This document shows positions 1-11,706 of a DNA stretch of 27,999 bases, piece by piece; the stretch's first letter is position 1; each line of letters starts with the position of its first letter. Source of the stretch: a virus; IMG/VR virus record IMGVR_UViG_3300031227_000313, positions 1 to 27,999 of that record, one strand, 5' to 3'. Under the pieces are notes generated by a model. It had not been told where the DNA came from and did no database searches. It worked only from the letters and a program-made list of their open reading frames with translations. The position numbers and the translations under genes were made by a program.

Positions 1-144
1 TTTTTTTATAAATATTTTGTGCGGATTAAAATATTTTTCTTCCCATCTATAAACAGTATTAAACGATACGTCCAATTTACCTGCAAGGGCTTCTCGGCTT
101 AATCCTGCTTTTTCTCGACGCTGTTTTAATTGTTTGCCTGTCAT
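1..144 (-). CDS. XRE/Cro-CI family helix-turn-helix regulator, N-terminal part
   Basis: This is the first 48 codons of a leftward gene cut by the window edge; the frame is open to base 1. The protein begins MTGKQLKQRREKAGLSREA and continues through LAGKLDVSFNTVYRWEE. That is the normal layout of an XRE/lambda-repressor helix-turn-helix: a basic first helix, then a GLSREALAGKLDVS turn and a recognition helix with NTVYRWE. The ATG at 144 follows an AGGAG on the minus strand (about 9 bases away) and a strong sigma70-type promoter. It is the only gene pointing left, so this is probably the border between the regulatory/early side and the late operon. It could be a repressor or Cro-like switch protein; which one cannot be told without the rest. 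Family assignment is fairly sure, role is inferred. Confidence 0.85.
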   Translation of the reverse strand, partial: MTGKQLKQRREKAGLSREALAGKLDVSFNTVYRWEEKYFNPHKIFIKK

Positions 145-172
145 TGTGTCATCTCCTTTTTGGGTTACTTTA

Positions 173-200
173 AGTATAACATATATTTAATATTTGTCAA
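173..200 (-). promoter_or_regulatory. Sigma70-type promoter of the leftward regulator, with possible operator
   Basis: Read on the minus strand, a perfect TTGACA (200-195) is followed after 16 bases by TATACT (178-173). It lies 29 bases upstream of the regulator ATG. The imperfect palindrome GTTACTTTAAGTATAAC (164-180, arms GTTA/TAAC) covers the -10 box and would be a natural autorepression site; that part is inference. Confidence 0.75.
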
Positions 201-224
201 GGGCTATTTTTAAAATAAATAAAG

Positions 225-253
225 TTTGCATTTTCCATATCATAGCGTATAAT
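225..253 (+). promoter_or_regulatory. Rightward sigma70-type promoter for the structured RNA/late operon
   Basis: A perfect TATAAT (248-253) sits 17 bases after TTTGCA (225-230, 4 of 6 matches to TTGACA), giving a start near 260. The hexamers TATCAT (238-243) and ATGATA (263-268) form an inverted repeat around the -10 box and could be operator half-sites. The promoter is divergent from that of the leftward regulator and about 25 bases from it, an arrangement typical of phage genetic switches. It is the only good promoter seen before the first rightward gene at 665. Confidence 0.6.
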
Positions 254-259
254 TGATAG

Positions 260-655
260 TGAATGATAAGACATAGATATTCGGGGGCGGCGGGACGATG
301 TCCTTTCCCGCTTGCTCCCAACCTTGACAAAGTAAGATGATTAAAGTTCTGCTATGCAGATAAGAAATAAGGTTCGGGGTGTCTCCCGGTCGACTAACTC
401 ATCTTACATATTTGACAATTAAATCCCTTTGAACTTCTTAGATACCACTACCAAGTAAGATAATGGAAAGTAGACCGAGAGTGGCAAACATAGATTTTTG
501 AGGGGATTTAGATATTGCGGGAGTATCTCCGGGGAGATAGTAAGTTACTACATCACGTTTCTTATGACTAATGTCATACAGGCATAGACCTAGGGTGTAG
601 GATTTGCTATTAAAAAGGCTGTGCATAACCCTAAAACCCCAAGCACAAATAAGGG
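260..655 (+). ncRNA. Candidate large structured RNA or long structured leader
   Basis: About 400 bases between the rightward promoter and the first gene contain no convincing coding sequence but a row of inverted repeats. These are: 283-295 with 306-319 (13 pairs, one bulge, two G-U); 332-340 with 399-407 (GTAAGATGA/TCATCTTAC), enclosing hairpins 348-352/356-360 and 375-378/385-388; 420-430 with 500-510 (11 pairs, some G-U), enclosing 445-449/480-484; 524-530 with 533-539; 563-568 with 573-578 (TATGAC/GTCATA); and 591-596 with 628-633 (TAGGGT/ACCCTA). No terminator is visible before 665, so it may be either a free RNA or the 5' leader of the late transcript. It does not match tmRNA, tRNA or RNase P as I know them. 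A DNA role such as a packaging site is an alternative. The structures are seen; the function is unknown. Confidence 0.5.
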
Positions 656-664
656 AAGGTTTAA

Positions 665-925
665 ATGAAACAGACCATCAGAATAACCTATAATGGAGCA
701 ATATCTAAAGAAATAGATTCAAGGCTGGCTGACCTATTAGAGGCAACTCCTCTTAATTTCGAGAAGACAGGGCAAGGATATAATGTAAAAACCGGTATTA
801 GGGATATACAATTTGAACGTGAGACCAATTTACAAGTAGAAATAATGACGATAAATGATGAGCATGAAAGGCAACTATCTATCAGGAATGCCCTCATGAT
901 AGACAAAGGAAGCCCACCAGCATGA
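665..925 (+). CDS. Hypothetical protein, 86 aa, first gene of the late operon
   Basis: The start at ATG 665 is preceded by a purine-rich site (AAGGGAAGG, 651-659). The protein is soluble, mixed charged and polar, with an N-terminal beta-like stretch (MKQTIRITYNG), a short helix (SRLADLLEAT) and a second beta-like stretch (NLQVEIMTIN). No signal peptide, membrane segment or known motif is visible, and I do not recognise the family. The stop codon overlaps the next start as ATGA, so the two genes are translationally coupled. It lies directly after the structured region and two genes upstream of the co-chaperonin. The reading frame is believable from start, spacing and coupling; function unknown. 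Confidence 0.7.
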   Translation: MKQTIRITYNGAISKEIDSRLADLLEATPLNFEKTGQGYNVKTGIRDIQFERETNLQVEIMTINDEHERQLSIRNALMIDKGSPPA

Positions 926-1398: not shown

Positions 1399-1872
1399 AT
1401 GGCAAAAGCAGGCGCACCCACAAAATACAAACCTGAATTCTGCGATGATATAATAAAATTCTACAGTAGAGACTGTTGTAAGGTAGTTGAGGGGAAGCTA
1501 ATAGGAATAAAGCTGCCCACGTTGGTTGAGTTTGCTAAACACATAAAGGTTGGGGTATCAACAGTTTATGATTGGGTAAATCCAGATCATGGGTCATATC
1601 AAAAGATATTCTCGGACATATATAAGAAAAAAGTAGTAGAAATGCAGAAGAATGCGTTGATACAAGGAGGGTTATTAGGATACTATAATCCCTACTTTTG
1701 TAAGTTTGTATCTACTAATTTAACAGACATGAGAGACCAACAAGATGTTAAGCTTGACTACGGGAAAGAAACTCTTGATAAATTTAAGGATATGAAACCA
1801 GATGAGCTTAAACGCAAGGCAAAGGAAATGTCTGACGGAGTTACAGGAGTTAGCACAGTACAAAAAGATTAA
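1399..1872 (+). CDS. terS: Terminase small subunit
   Basis: The 157-residue protein has the layout of phage terminase small subunits. It has an N-terminal GAPTKYKPEFCDDIIKFY segment, a helix-turn-helix-like part around 41-58 (LVEFAKHIKVGVSTVYDW), and a helical middle ending in FCKFVSTNLTDMRDQ. The AGAPTKYxPE opening and the kxStvydW pattern are typical of this family. TerS recognises the phage DNA packaging site and loads the large subunit. Its last 71 bases overlap the start of terL in another frame, consistent with a coupled terS-terL pair. The start ATG 1399 has a GAGGTAAGA site upstream. The tail after residue 120 is charged and probably contacts TerL. Confidence is good from both motif and position. 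Confidence 0.85.
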   Translation: MAKAGAPTKYKPEFCDDIIKFYSRDCCKVVEGKLIGIKLPTLVEFAKHIKVGVSTVYDWVNPDHGSYQKIFSDIYKKKVVEMQKNALIQGGLLGYYNPYFCKFVSTNLTDMRDQQDVKLDYGKETLDKFKDMKPDELKRKAKEMSDGVTGVSTVQKD

Positions 1873-3721
1873 CCCTTTAGCGTTCTTTGAAAGATTGCCT
1901 ATTCAAGAGCTATTTTCTACTTGTAAGGGCAAAATAAGAGTATTGTTTGGCGGCAACCGGTCAGGAAAGACTGAAGAAGGGGCCGAATACTGCATAAGAA
2001 AAGCATTAGAGAAGCCAAATCAACGCATCTGGTGCTGTGCAGAGACCGAGGCTATCAGCATTTCAATACAACAGCGCAAGATATGGAGTCAGCTACCTAA
2101 GCATTTACTAAAATATGCGTTCTATGATCAGATAAATGGCTTTCGCAATAGTAAGATAATCTTTAAAAACGGCTCATACTTAGCATTTAAGACATATCAG
2201 CAAGGGGTTATATCTTACTCTTCAGATGATATTGACCTCATCTGGAATGATGAAGAGCCCAACAATGAGATAGTTAAAGAGCAGAGAATGCGGCTCCTTG
2301 ATAGAGATGGCGAAATGATATTCACCATGACCTCATTAAAAGGCGTAACAGACCTAATTGATGACATTTCAAGCGATTATGAGATAATTAAGTCTGAATA
2401 CGCAGAGCTGGCAGATAAGACGCTTCCCAGGATAGCTAAGAAGGATGATATATACATCTTTTTTATGTGGACTACAGAAAATCCATATATCAATCAGGGG
2501 CGTGTTAAGTCAGATGCTAAGCTGATGAGTTCACAAGAGATACTATCTCGTATATATGGAATGCCGATTAACTTAACTGGCAAGGTATATCCAACATTCA
2601 GCCATGATATACATATATTGCCTCAGAATGATATGCCTTATGATGAGCCAGTTACGCTTTATCACGTTCTTGACCCACACGACCGGAAGCCCTGGGCAAT
2701 GGGTTGGTTCGCAGTCAATAGAGTAGGCACGGGATTTATGATTGATGAATATCCCAATAGAAACTTCAATGAGATTATATCAGACAATAAGACTTATGAA
2801 GAATATGCTCAGATTATTAAGGTTAAAGAGGCAGCAATTCTCGATGTGTTTAGAGCGAACGGAGTACACAGGCGCATCATTGACCCCAACTCTGGCAACT
2901 GTACGGAGCGGAAAGCTAAGCGGGACAGCGAAACAGGGATAGCATCTACAACACCAAAGAAGATGCTCCAAGCTTTAAATCTCACGTTTCACGATGGTAT
3001 TGACATAATAGAGGCAGGGCACTTACAAGTAAGACAGAAGCTTTATTATGAGATGAAAGACGGCGAGTTTATAACCAAGCCGAAGTTCTATATCTCTGAT
3101 AGATGCCATAACGCAATAAGGCACATGAGTAAGTATTCACACAAAGACCCCACAACGACAGACGGAGACGTAAGAGACAAGATAGGCTTAGTAGAGAAAC
3201 ATAAGGATTTCTGTTTAGTGGGAAACACTTTAATAAGAACACCAAAAGGACAAATAATCATTAAAGATATTAAAATAGGAGATTATGTGGAAACAGATGT
3301 TGGCTTAAGAAAAGTAACAGCATCACGGATTACTGGATATAATAGCAATGTAATAAAAGTTACTTTCTCAGATGGAAGAATATTGTGCGGAACTCCGAAT
3401 CATAGAGTATTTTTAAAAAATGGGAAAGAAATTCCACTTGACTTACTTAGATATGGTGATATAATGGATGTATGGGAAAACCAAAAAACAAATATTCAAA
3501 AGCAAAAACATGCTCACCGCGATGCAGTAACTGTAGCCAAAGTCGAACCAAACTCCAAAAAAACAGTTTATAATTTAACCGTTGAGGGCAGACATAGATA
3601 TTATGCCAACGATATTCTTGTGTCTAATTGCGACGTTATTAGATATTTTTGGATGGATAACCCCAGATTTATAAAGAGAAGCACATTTAATGCAGAGAAT
3701 GAGTTTGAGAAAGCATATTAA
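1802..3721 (+). CDS. terL: Terminase large subunit interrupted by an in-frame mini-intein
   Basis: The 639-residue precursor is the ATP-driven DNA packaging motor and nuclease. The ATPase domain has a Walker A motif GGNRSGKT (50-57), a Walker B region IDLIWNDEEP (144-153) with acidic catalytic residues, and a TMTSLKG motif III (175-181). The RNase H-like nuclease shows VLDPHD (D291), IIDP (D361) and a final motif KDF-CDVIRYF split by the intein. Residues 471-609 are the intein; after splicing the protein would be 500 residues, normal for TerL. The start ATG 1802 lies inside terS (71-base overlap) with AAGGA upstream; no later in-frame ATG precedes the ATPase domain. Splicing must work for the nuclease motif to be rebuilt, so TerL activity depends on the intein. 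Identification is secure. Confidence 0.95.
   Translation: MSLNARQRKCLTELQELAQYKKINPLAFFERLPIQELFSTCKGKIRVLFGGNRSGKTEEGAEYCIRKALEKPNQRIWCCAETEAISISIQQRKIWSQLPKHLLKYAFYDQINGFRNSKIIFKNGSYLAFKTYQQGVISYSSDDIDLIWNDEEPNNEIVKEQRMRLLDRDGEMIFTMTSLKGVTDLIDDISSDYEIIKSEYAELADKTLPRIAKKDDIYIFFMWTTENPYINQGRVKSDAKLMSSQEILSRIYGMPINLTGKVYPTFSHDIHILPQNDMPYDEPVTLYHVLDPHDRKPWAMGWFAVNRVGTGFMIDEYPNRNFNEIISDNKTYEEYAQIIKVKEAAILDVFRANGVHRRIIDPNSGNCTERKAKRDSETGIASTTPKKMLQALNLTFHDGIDIIEAGHLQVRQKLYYEMKDGEFITKPKFYISDRCHNAIRHMSKYSHKDPTTTDGDVRDKIGLVEKHKDFCLVGNTLIRTPKGQIIIKDIKIGDYVETDVGLRKVTASRITGYNSNVIKVTFSDGRILCGTPNHRVFLKNGKEIPLDLLRYGDIMDVWENQKTNIQKQKHAHRDAVTVAKVEPNSKKTVYNLTVEGRHRYYANDILVSNCDVIRYFWMDNPRFIKRSTFNAENEFEKAY
3212..3628 (+). 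other. Mini-intein (139 aa) without homing endonuclease, inside terL
   Basis: The insert runs from Cys471 to Asn609 of TerL. Block A is CLVGNTLIRTPKG at the N-terminus with the nucleophile Cys. Block B has TPNH (531-534). Block F/G at the C-terminus is VYNLTVEGRHRYYAND followed by ILVSN, and the next residue is Cys610 (+1 nucleophile). The usual penultimate His is Ser608, while a block F His (H598) is present. There is no LAGLIDADG or HNH segment between blocks B and F, only about 45 residues, so this is a mini-intein that can splice but not home on its own. The insert is visibly more AT-rich: three 60-base lines inside gave 27, 32 and 38% GC against 43 and 57% in two lines of flanking terL. 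A non-splicing Hint domain is the alternative; the intact flanking TerL motif argues against it. Confidence 0.92.
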
Positions 3722-9077: not shown

Positions 9078-9995
9078 ATGACAAGAAATGAACAATCACA
9101 GCTTTATACTCCTATTTACGATGAGTTCTTTATGTCAACATTCAATGAAGAAACTCAGGTTCATACTAAGCTTTTCAAAGCGATAGATGACCACACCAAA
9201 GAGTATAAGGAAGATTCAATTAGTGCATTGGGTAGATGGGTTGATGCCAATGAAGGCGAAGGCGGAGGCCAGGAAACCCCAGTCTTAGGTTATGCTAAGA
9301 CATACGAACCCGAAAAGAAATGGAAGAAACTCCAGATTACGTTCGAGGCCGTAGACCAGGATGAATATGCTTTAGCAAAAAAAGAAGGCGATGTAAAAGC
9401 AATGGGTAGAGGCGGTAGAGATGCCGTTGAAGCCGCAACTTCTGCTATACTAGCTGACGGTTTTGCTACAGCATGTCCTGATGGGCAGTATCTGTTCTCA
9501 AATTCACATCCTAAGAACAGCGAAGAAACAGGAACAGTGTACGACAACTTGCTTAGCGGTGCTCTTTCTCACACTTCGTTAGAAGCCGCAGAAACTCAAA
9601 TAGCTCAGAACGCCTTTGACCCTAAGGGTATTCCTATTGCTATGGGCGAAGAAGCTTATTTAGTTCATCCCCCAGAGTTAAAAGGGCAAGTTTTTAGATT
9701 GTTAAGTGATAGAGCCACTGAACAACCTGACACTACTCTAAGAAACGCCAATAGATTCTCAGGTAAATATACACCAGTTGAATGGAGGTATCTTTCATCT
9801 GCATTAGAGGGCTCTGCAACTATGTGGTTTATAGTTTATCCGGCTCTTAATATGCTAAAGATAATCTGGCAGGCAAGACCTCACTTTACCTCTTGGATTG
9901 ACAACGACTTAGAGCTTTACAACTTCAAGGGTAGAATGATATTTGACACTGGTGCATCTGATTGGAGAAGTGTTTGGGGTTCCACTGGATTATAA
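9078..9995 (+). CDS. Major capsid protein, HK97 fold, Mu gpT-like
   Basis: The 305-residue protein follows scaffold and decoration genes with a strong AGGAGG site. It shows features of Mu gpT-like major head proteins. These are an N-terminal arm (residues 1-40), an E-loop-like charged Gly-rich part (ANEGEGGGQETP), LFSNSHPKN around 139-147, and SHTSLEAAETQIAQNAFDPK. Also present are a strand AYLVHPPELKGQVFRLL and C-terminal WFIVYPALNMLKIIWQA and ASDWRSVWGSTGL. The SHP motif, the hPPxL strand and the closing WRxV are typical. It builds the icosahedral shell. There is no protease or N-terminal extension beyond the arm, so the separate scaffold gene is needed. It may be the client of the phage GroES-like protein; that is inference. 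High confidence in the call. Confidence 0.88.
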   Translation: MTRNEQSQLYTPIYDEFFMSTFNEETQVHTKLFKAIDDHTKEYKEDSISALGRWVDANEGEGGGQETPVLGYAKTYEPEKKWKKLQITFEAVDQDEYALAKKEGDVKAMGRGGRDAVEAATSAILADGFATACPDGQYLFSNSHPKNSEETGTVYDNLLSGALSHTSLEAAETQIAQNAFDPKGIPIAMGEEAYLVHPPELKGQVFRLLSDRATEQPDTTLRNANRFSGKYTPVEWRYLSSALEGSATMWFIVYPALNMLKIIWQARPHFTSWIDNDLELYNFKGRMIFDTGASDWRSVWGSTGL

Positions 9996-10020
9996 ACAGA
10001 GCTAAAAAGGAGGAAATGCA

Positions 10021-11706
10021 ATGAAGAAACAATTTTTCGTGATAGCTCTGTTGATTATAGGTTCATTTATTATTGGATTTATGTCTAGTGTAAGTTACGC
10101 TACTGTTATTCATGATGATGGTATATTGATTGTCGATAACGATGGATATATCTATGGCAAAACAGATGGTGCGATTGAATTAGGTAAATCCGGTAATGAG
10201 TGGGAGGATATTTACACAGATTCTATCACTCTGGGTGGTGTAGCAAAGACCTCTTGGGGAAGCGTTGTAACGCCTTGGGTTGACAATGGTACTTACATTG
10301 CTCCCACAGGCGCTCCTACGGCTGTTAAAATCTATCTCAATGGTAATGGTATTTTTATTGGCGATATAGATGCTGATAGCTATATAATGGAGAATGACGC
10401 TCAACTTGATAATGCTGTAAATAATACTGTTACTTTAACTGAAAATGATGATATTTTCTCTATTGTTTTTGCTACAACTGATATTACGCTTTCAGCGAGT
10501 GATGGTAGTATTGAGCTTTATCCTGAAGCAGATGCTACAGAAGGTACAGTTGATTTTCTAACTGGTGGCGACACGAATGACTTTTTGTATGTCAAAACCA
10601 CTTCTAATGTACCTATACTAGCAACTTCAGGCGGTTGTAATCTTTCAATAGTTCCTGATGGTGGAACACTTGCTTTAACAGGTATCTTGACTGTAAGTGG
10701 GGCCCAGACTTTAACAGGAGCTACAACTCTAACATCAGTTATTATAGGGGATGATACTTATGACGTTGTTGTTGATGACGAGCATAGGTTTACTTCTAAT
10801 GATAGTGATGTTGTGGTTGATGTTTTTGCAACTACTGATAAAGATGCTATCTTGCAGTTGACAGCGGACCTTTCAGCAGACAGTGGCGACGAATGGCAGC
10901 TGAAGAATGATGATGCTGATAGTAATGCGTTGTTATTCATCAATGATACTGGCGGTTCACTTGCTACTATTATGGAGTTGTCTGTTGGTGGTGTTTTAAC
11001 TTTAACCAGTAATTTGGTCGGTGAAAACGCTGATGTGTTAGATAACGCAACTGATGATACATTTCAGTTTTCGTCTAACGATTTAGATACAACTATTAGA
11101 GCTTATGGCTATGAAGAGAAAGATGCCATTTTAAGATTGACAGCAGATGAAAGCGATAATGATGGTGATGAATGGCAAATTAAGCACGAAGCTACTGGTA
11201 ATCATTTACAGTTTGTTACTGATGCTTCTGGCTCTGATGTTGTTCTTGCCTACTTTAACGCTTCAACTGGTTTTCATCTTGGCGGAGCTTTAGGTGTTTG
11301 TGGAGTTACAACACTATCTGGCAATGTCAATATGTATCAGGCAGATTTAACTATTACTGATGCAACTCTTGGTGATAGCTTAACTTTTGATACTTCAGCT
11401 GGTGATTTAGCTATAGCAGGTGATTTGTCAGTTGATGGTGATGACATCAATGCCGATGGTAACTTAACTATTGATGCAGAAGGTGGAACACTTGCATTGC
11501 AAGCCGGAAGTACTGACATCTTGACTGTTGGTGGTTTAGGTGTATGTGTAATTGGTAATATAAGTAACACTGGTGATGTGTATGTTGGTGGAGATATTAC
11601 TGCTGCTAGTATGAAATCTGGTACAGACCAGGGTGATGCTGGTGCAGCTGCTGGTGAGCTTTATTACGACACTAATGATGATGATACTATCAAAATGGGC
11701 ACTTAA
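10021..11706 (+). CDS. Secreted-type beta-repetitive fibre-like protein, 561 aa
   Basis: The start ATG 10021 has an excellent AGGAGG site, so the N-terminus is reliable. It encodes a clear Sec signal peptide: MKK, a hydrophobic core FFVIALLIIGSFIIGF, and a cleavage site after Ala27 (SYA-TV). The mature protein is a run of Thr/Asp/Gly-rich beta repeats of the sort seen in phage fibres (GNLTIDAEGGTLALQAG, LTITDATLGDSLTFDTS). It has two copies of an about 80-residue module with KDAILxLTAD and GDEWQxK. The C-terminus (GAAAGELYYDTNDDDTIKMG) is a common fibre ending. It shares GDxxDxLYxxTTSN with the 1681-residue fibre. The gene directly follows the capsid gene and is followed by a hairpin. A virion surface or fibre protein is likely; the export signal is unexpected for one. 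Confidence 0.7.
   Translation: MKKQFFVIALLIIGSFIIGFMSSVSYATVIHDDGILIVDNDGYIYGKTDGAIELGKSGNEWEDIYTDSITLGGVAKTSWGSVVTPWVDNGTYIAPTGAPTAVKIYLNGNGIFIGDIDADSYIMENDAQLDNAVNNTVTLTENDDIFSIVFATTDITLSASDGSIELYPEADATEGTVDFLTGGDTNDFLYVKTTSNVPILATSGGCNLSIVPDGGTLALTGILTVSGAQTLTGATTLTSVIIGDDTYDVVVDDEHRFTSNDSDVVVDVFATTDKDAILQLTADLSADSGDEWQLKNDDADSNALLFINDTGGSLATIMELSVGGVLTLTSNLVGENADVLDNATDDTFQFSSNDLDTTIRAYGYEEKDAILRLTADESDNDGDEWQIKHEATGNHLQFVTDASGSDVVLAYFNASTGFHLGGALGVCGVTTLSGNVNMYQADLTITDATLGDSLTFDTSAGDLAIAGDLSVDGDDINADGNLTIDAEGGTLALQAGSTDILTVGGLGVCVIGNISNTGDVYVGGDITAASMKSGTDQGDAGAAAGELYYDTNDDDTIKMGT
10749..11270 (+). repeat. Two copies of an about 80-residue module in the fibre-like gene
   Basis: Residues about 243-325 and 337-415 repeat the same pattern: a D-rich lead, FxSND.D, a (K)DAIL(Q/R)LTAD segment, GDEWQ(L/I)K, then LxFxxD..GS. 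Copies differ at most positions at the DNA level, so the duplication is old rather than recent. Confidence 0.65.

Follow-up and report, generated by a model that had tools for sequence, protein, structure and literature searches.

Late genes of phage lambda are controlled by the pR' promoter, a leader terminator and the Q protein. Antitermination by RNA alone is represented by the put RNAs of phage HK022, which PMC9378689 describes as elements of about 70 nt with two stem-loops, located in early operons. Large abundant noncoding transcripts are also found in phages, according to PMC7567579 and PMC12286853; the latter gives lengths above 800 nt for many members of the GOLLD class. In the titles and abstract openings found on phage RNAs, antitermination and leaders, a scope that leaves subscription journals and preprints outside, neither the leader analysed here nor the cloverleaf RNA found in its relatives is described.

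The analysed stretch, hereafter the window, is a 27,999-base IMG/VR virus record. Its positions 260-655 (+ strand) combine a divergent intergenic space with the leader of a rightward operon. To the left lies an HTH_3 repressor-like gene (1-144, minus strand) that is cut by the window end; the complete gene encodes 56 aa in L002, a contig of the same phage with about 970 additional bases at the left, and there the longer HTH gene is accompanied by more leftward genes, which look replication-type by eye. The leftward genes have a divergent promoter-like site TTGACA-16-TATACT (173-200, minus strand; 11 of 12 consensus bases). For the rightward operon, the good promoter that had been predicted ahead of the region corresponds to a promoter-like TTTGCA-17-TATAAT at 225-253 (plus strand; 10/12); both sites were scored against the consensus only, which may not suit the sigma factors of the host. 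Judged from this promoter-like sequence, transcription would start at about 260. An inverted pair of CCTTGACAAA surrounds the leader start, at 193-202 (minus) and 322-331 (plus); the -35 element of the leftward site is overlapped by one of them, and the pair could represent operator halves.

The first rightward gene, orf86 of unknown function (665-925, plus strand), has an apparent ribosome-binding site AGGGAAGG just upstream; the location before the first late gene given in the original prediction holds. It is followed by a second small ORF, a GroES-like co-chaperonin gene (1063-1389), the small and large terminase subunit genes (1399-3721), and the genes of the portal, the major head protein and others, all on the plus strand. 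The large terminase gene (1802-3721) has an intein-like insert near residues 471-611, with matches to Intein_splicing and Hint_2. Every large gene from 665 to the window end reads rightward, hence a long transcript must escape termination. A scan of 1-1500 gave no terminator-like site on the plus strand. Within 260-655, stops break all three plus-strand frames, and the longest ORF is a 62-aa frame on the minus strand without a convincing family match, in line with the expected absence of a convincing gene.

The stacked inverted repeats reported for 260-655 are present there in the minimum-energy fold. The fold consists of a GC-rich hairpin, a three-way junction, a long stem, a third stem and weaker 3' pairings, all described here for the plus strand. 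The GC-rich 5' hairpin at 283-319, already singled out in the original prediction, is flanked by TATTCGGGGG (278-287) and TTGCTCCC. The three-way junction (332-407) is closed by nine perfect pairs between GTAAGATGA and TCATCTTAC, 332-340 with 399-407. The long stem (419-511) contains an inner stem CCACT/AGTGG, and its closing helix (419-433 with 497-511) runs for 15 pairs without a break, G-U pairs counted, which is longer than the 13 pairs given earlier for one of the helices. The third local stem (536-613) has 11 and 7 pairs. An imperfect direct repeat AAGTAAGATRAT..AAAG occurs at 330-348 and 453-471, and the segment 399-407 is able to pair with either copy; a conformational switch is conceivable on the basis of these modelled pairings.

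The helices of 260-655 are modestly above chance. When the sequence was shuffled 400 times with its dinucleotides preserved, the 15-pair length never recurred, whereas the best helix score was reached nine times, the sum of the three best helices eight times and the sum of the six best seven times. In 90 control stretches taken from the window, the 15-pair length was reached in two and the three-helix sum in one; the best score and the six-helix sum were reached in none. The overall folding energy, in contrast, is ordinary. In the comparison with shuffled sequence that the original prediction proposed, it is only weakly better (z about -2.5). On the plus strand z ranges from -2.26 to -2.52 and on the minus strand from -2.35 to -2.58, and since the values are similar on both strands, a plus-strand RNA is not favoured by them. 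Of 54 control stretches, four had z of -2.4 or lower on the plus strand and five had -2.1 or lower.

The covariance search proposed earlier gave no Rfam family for the whole window or for 200-670 alone at E-values up to 10. The ROOL and GOLLD models were among those without a match, and both classes were rejected for the window; the original prediction had refrained from claiming membership in either. The frequent, though not obligatory, tRNA neighbourhood of these classes is absent, as the window contains no tRNA genes. A search for DNA homologues in phage records gave a single weak match of 54 bases, which lies under a coding gene of a phage represented by two records and was rejected as a homologue.

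Relatives were gathered from IMG/VR by terminase, head and portal protein scans and then by alignments, which gave 39 unique terminase contigs at an identity of at least 42%, the phage of the window included. By BLAST, the leader is present in L002 only, identical over 435 bases. Covariance models of window positions 278-408 and 416-515 matched the window alone among 56 sources, that is, none of the 55 relatives' loci. A terminase alignment applied to genome contigs, in search of hosts or prophages, gave 17 stretches that fit the pattern, none of them a relative.

The corresponding stretch is variable among the relatives. The GroES-TerS-TerL order of the window is also that of L005, where a 500-base gene-free stretch with unexceptional folding (z -0.85) lies ahead of it. 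Six DnaA-box-like sites, five of them exact TTATNCACA, lie at 908-1101 of this contig and may mark a replication origin. At the place of the leader, L012 shows several hairpins within about 400 bases. In L032 an interruption of about 800 bases that contains small ORFs divides the corresponding stretch; compared with L012 4105-4140, L032 2430-3200 looks as if genes had been inserted into a noncoding leader. The L032 leader starts, like that of the window, with TATTCGGGGG and TTGCTCCC flanking a hairpin. A collection scan for this pair gave nine stretches. One is L002, two are contigs of the L032 type that are nearly identical to each other, and the remaining six seem unrelated. The 5' hairpin motif is therefore common to the window and L032, i.e. 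to one independent lineage. No Rfam family matched the leaders of L005, L012 and L054. Sliding z-scores over the relatives' leaders, calculated without several contigs that have very long upstream parts, were not decisive. A very strong hairpin (z -6.3) was observed in the region 2394-2513 of L120, in a leftward gene block upstream of the terminase.

Upstream of the terminase, hairpins of another kind are frequent. A terminator-like hairpin was found within 1.3 kb upstream of TerL in 10 of 33 unique contigs (L002 included), those having at least 400 bases upstream of TerL; six shorter contigs of the 39 and the window fragment L001 were left out. The density of such hairpins is 0.25 per kb upstream of TerL vs 0.02 per kb in equal downstream stretches, under thresholds of our own that allow longer loops than the rule of the standard tool. 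The hairpins of L027 and L049 were listed by our rule and missed by the standard one. In L027, L044, L047 and L049 a promoter-like site is followed by a terminator-like hairpin and then by a terminase small-subunit-like gene; L037 has the hairpin, and the scan gave no plus-strand promoter for it. None of the five phages with long or structured leaders (L002, L005, L012, L032, L054) has a terminator-like hairpin there, a number of cases too small to be significant alone. Because of the 10 contigs with an upstream terminator-like hairpin and the difference in density, leader control of the late operon looks like a group trait, and the layout of promoter, hairpin and terminase is what would be expected if antitermination releases the late genes.

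L012 (3981-4101), L032 (2321-2424) and L054 (1768-1854) share a domain, TGGCGTGGTAGCC...AACTGCC, which is enclosed by a different closing helix in each of them. The element lies at the place of the late-operon leader in L012 and L032; in L054 it is just before TerL, between two genes and not at a promoter. A scan of IMG/VR for the domain yielded 33 stretches, of which 28 are closed by complementary strands forming five or more pairs; the other five lack such a closing helix by our rule and were not counted as members. Further members are among L137-L167 and L197-L209. The sequences fit a cloverleaf, a four-way junction of a variable P1, the hairpin GGC-GUGGUA-GCC, a variable arm P2 and the hairpin GCAG-ACCAA-CUGC. 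A loop-loop contact between UGGU and ACCA is predicted.

In a 19-row alignment of the cloverleaf 91.9% of the cells are paired vs 72.6% in shuffled alignments, and the covariation score is 0.523 vs 0.150, a value reached in 0 of 500 shuffles; all slid versions score at most 0.14. The 19 rows are what remains of 22 after removal of L012, L137 and L141, in which MAFFT misplaced the 3' hairpin; with the model built from the 19 rows these three score 32, 36 and 50 bits, respectively, and they are included in the larger alignment of 30. Conservation is partly due to construction, as both the first hairpin and the 3' half of the other one were prescribed in the pattern used for searching. In a further scan the stem of the first hairpin was left free, which gave 22 stretches, 13 of them new. 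First-hairpin stems that are changed and yet pair were found among them, GGG/CCC in L197 and L204 and GGA/UUC in L205; L198 and L201 have stems with a broken pair, and L199 is poor (22 bits) and was kept out of the 30-row alignment. That alignment, fitted to its model R1, has 90.0% of cells paired and a score of 0.621 vs 0.165 when shuffled.

Individual phages typically have one cloverleaf: a search of 20 whole records gave a match in 19, usually in one copy, and one record has two strong copies. By simple ORF calling, the upstream ORF ends at most 13 bases from the cloverleaf start in 10 of 21 loci, and a stop codon often comes directly before the cloverleaf. At gathering thresholds, 20 loci from the cloverleaf scan gave two true tRNAs as the only Rfam matches. 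The pattern occurs in 29 stretches of the genome collection, two of them with neighbouring complementarity that was judged to be chance, and there is no convincing member among them. The cloverleaf is a widespread, strongly covarying phage RNA that is absent from Rfam 15, and it is a stronger discovery than the window leader. It was rejected for the window itself, where the best unfiltered match of R1 scores 8 bits and none of the 15 matches listed falls into 260-655.

The variable arm of the cloverleaf contains a hairpin resembling the T-arm of tRNA (GGTTCGATTCC type) in L148, L197 and L207; by a strict definition such inserts are present in 3 of 30 members, and L140, L167 and L200 show a similar one by eye. 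The 62-kb phage contig L145 seemingly has two more cloverleaf-like folds beside its cloverleaf, at about 9950-10450. One has AGAGACGG/CCGTCTCT ends and a T-arm-like hairpin, and the other has a GCGTGGTAGC loop and ends that are complementary over 13 bases, CCACTGATGATGG/CCATCATCAGTGG.

Tentatively, and with less than even confidence, we propose that 260-655 is a structured leader acting in cis on the late operon with its packaging and structural genes, possibly by antitermination. A promoter-like site, a row of stems and the first gene follow one another with no terminator between them; structured noncoding stretches occur at the same place in L012 and L032, and these two and L054 carry a fold with strong covariation; and the 5' hairpin motif of the window recurs in the L032 leader. 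These observations argue for the leader, as do the long series of rightward genes and the terminator-like hairpins ahead of TerL in sister phages. Against it are the single-sequence models, which match nothing in the relatives' loci, the folding energy, equally unusual on the two strands, and the size of about 400 nt compared with about 70 nt for put RNAs, as well as the L054 cloverleaf, which is not at a promoter, and the ordinary L005 leader. The original prediction is supported in part: its large noncoding RNA is best read as a structured noncoding leader, with structured RNA or terminator hairpins at this place in sister phages. An RNA acting in trans as a discrete molecule, comparable to ROOL, to GOLLD or to the transcript of about 800 nt in ICP1, would agree with a gene-free, structured, promoter-preceded and phage-borne region and with the large abundant noncoding transcripts known from phages. 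It is less likely than an operon leader because there is no terminator before the first gene, nor another 3' end ahead of 665. The missing Rfam match, the lack of a nearby tRNA and a length below that of GOLLD also speak against it, and we regard it as unlikely.

The main rival, itself unlikely, is a DNA element, given that the two strands do not differ in their folding signal and that L005 has DnaA boxes. The inverted repeats would then be protein-binding or strand-opening features of a replication origin, a repressor-operator region or a packaging start. The position between leftward genes (HTH and others) and terminase genes and the inverted CCTTGACAAA at 193 and 322 agree with such an element, as do the six DnaA-box-like sites in the same stretch of L005; window positions 1-700, however, have one such site, which is not above the 1.5 per kb of the window as a whole. 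In contrast to operators, the 15-pair helix extends over 93 nt and encloses further structure, and the cloverleaf near the same place in relatives covaries as RNA. A spacer whose helices are mostly due to chance is also unlikely. It would account for the energy, matched or approached by four to five of the 54 other stretches, for the helix sums, reached in seven to nine of the 400 shuffles, and for the lack of diverged homologues. It does not explain the 15-pair helix, absent from all shuffles, or the six-helix sum, absent from all 90 controls; moreover, 400 gene-free bases are costly for a phage, and relatives keep structure or terminators at this place.

If 260-655 is a late-operon leader, transcription from the promoter at 225-253 would enter it, and the RNA would fold co-transcriptionally into a row of local stems, which would probably act in cis on the rightward late operon. 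Most likely, RNA polymerase would then read through terminators along the long operon, with the leader serving as an RNA-only antiterminator like HK022 put RNA; alternatively, expression could be gated in an attenuator-like manner. We also speculate, although we consider it quite improbable, that the head of the packaging operon in this phage group carries a fast-evolving modular RNA of about 400 nt, whose modules in sister lineages include the cloverleaf and of which the window has a diverged version with the cloverleaf module swapped for another three-way junction, and that this RNA controls late transcription or joins in packaging without a dedicated protein. An RNA-only late-gene switch, if true, would add to the very few known protein-free antiterminators and would allow a direct test in uncultured phages. 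The cloverleaf covaries strongly enough to make probing and genetics worthwhile, and it shows that the cataloguing of structured phage RNAs is still poor.

Compared with ROOL and GOLLD, the RNA candidate of the window is likewise large, structured, gene-free and phage-borne; it differs by having neither a covariance match nor a neighbouring tRNA gene, and GOLLD is longer. Lambda late control is resembled by several relatives, in which a promoter-like site and a terminator-like hairpin precede the terminase genes, whereas the window leader has no terminator. The put RNA of HK022 is a structured RNA that follows a promoter at the 5' end of a phage operon; if transcribed, the window leader would be placed alike, with the promoter-like site at 225-253 and 260-655 downstream of it. 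The leader, however, has about 400 nt and several stems instead of about 70 nt and two stem-loops, and it belongs to a late operon. Put RNAs contact RNA polymerase and thereby suppress termination, and the window leader might likewise let polymerase pass terminators. The cloverleaf R1 differs in being absent from the window; the two are similar in that L032 carries the cloverleaf and shares the 5' hairpin motif of the window leader.
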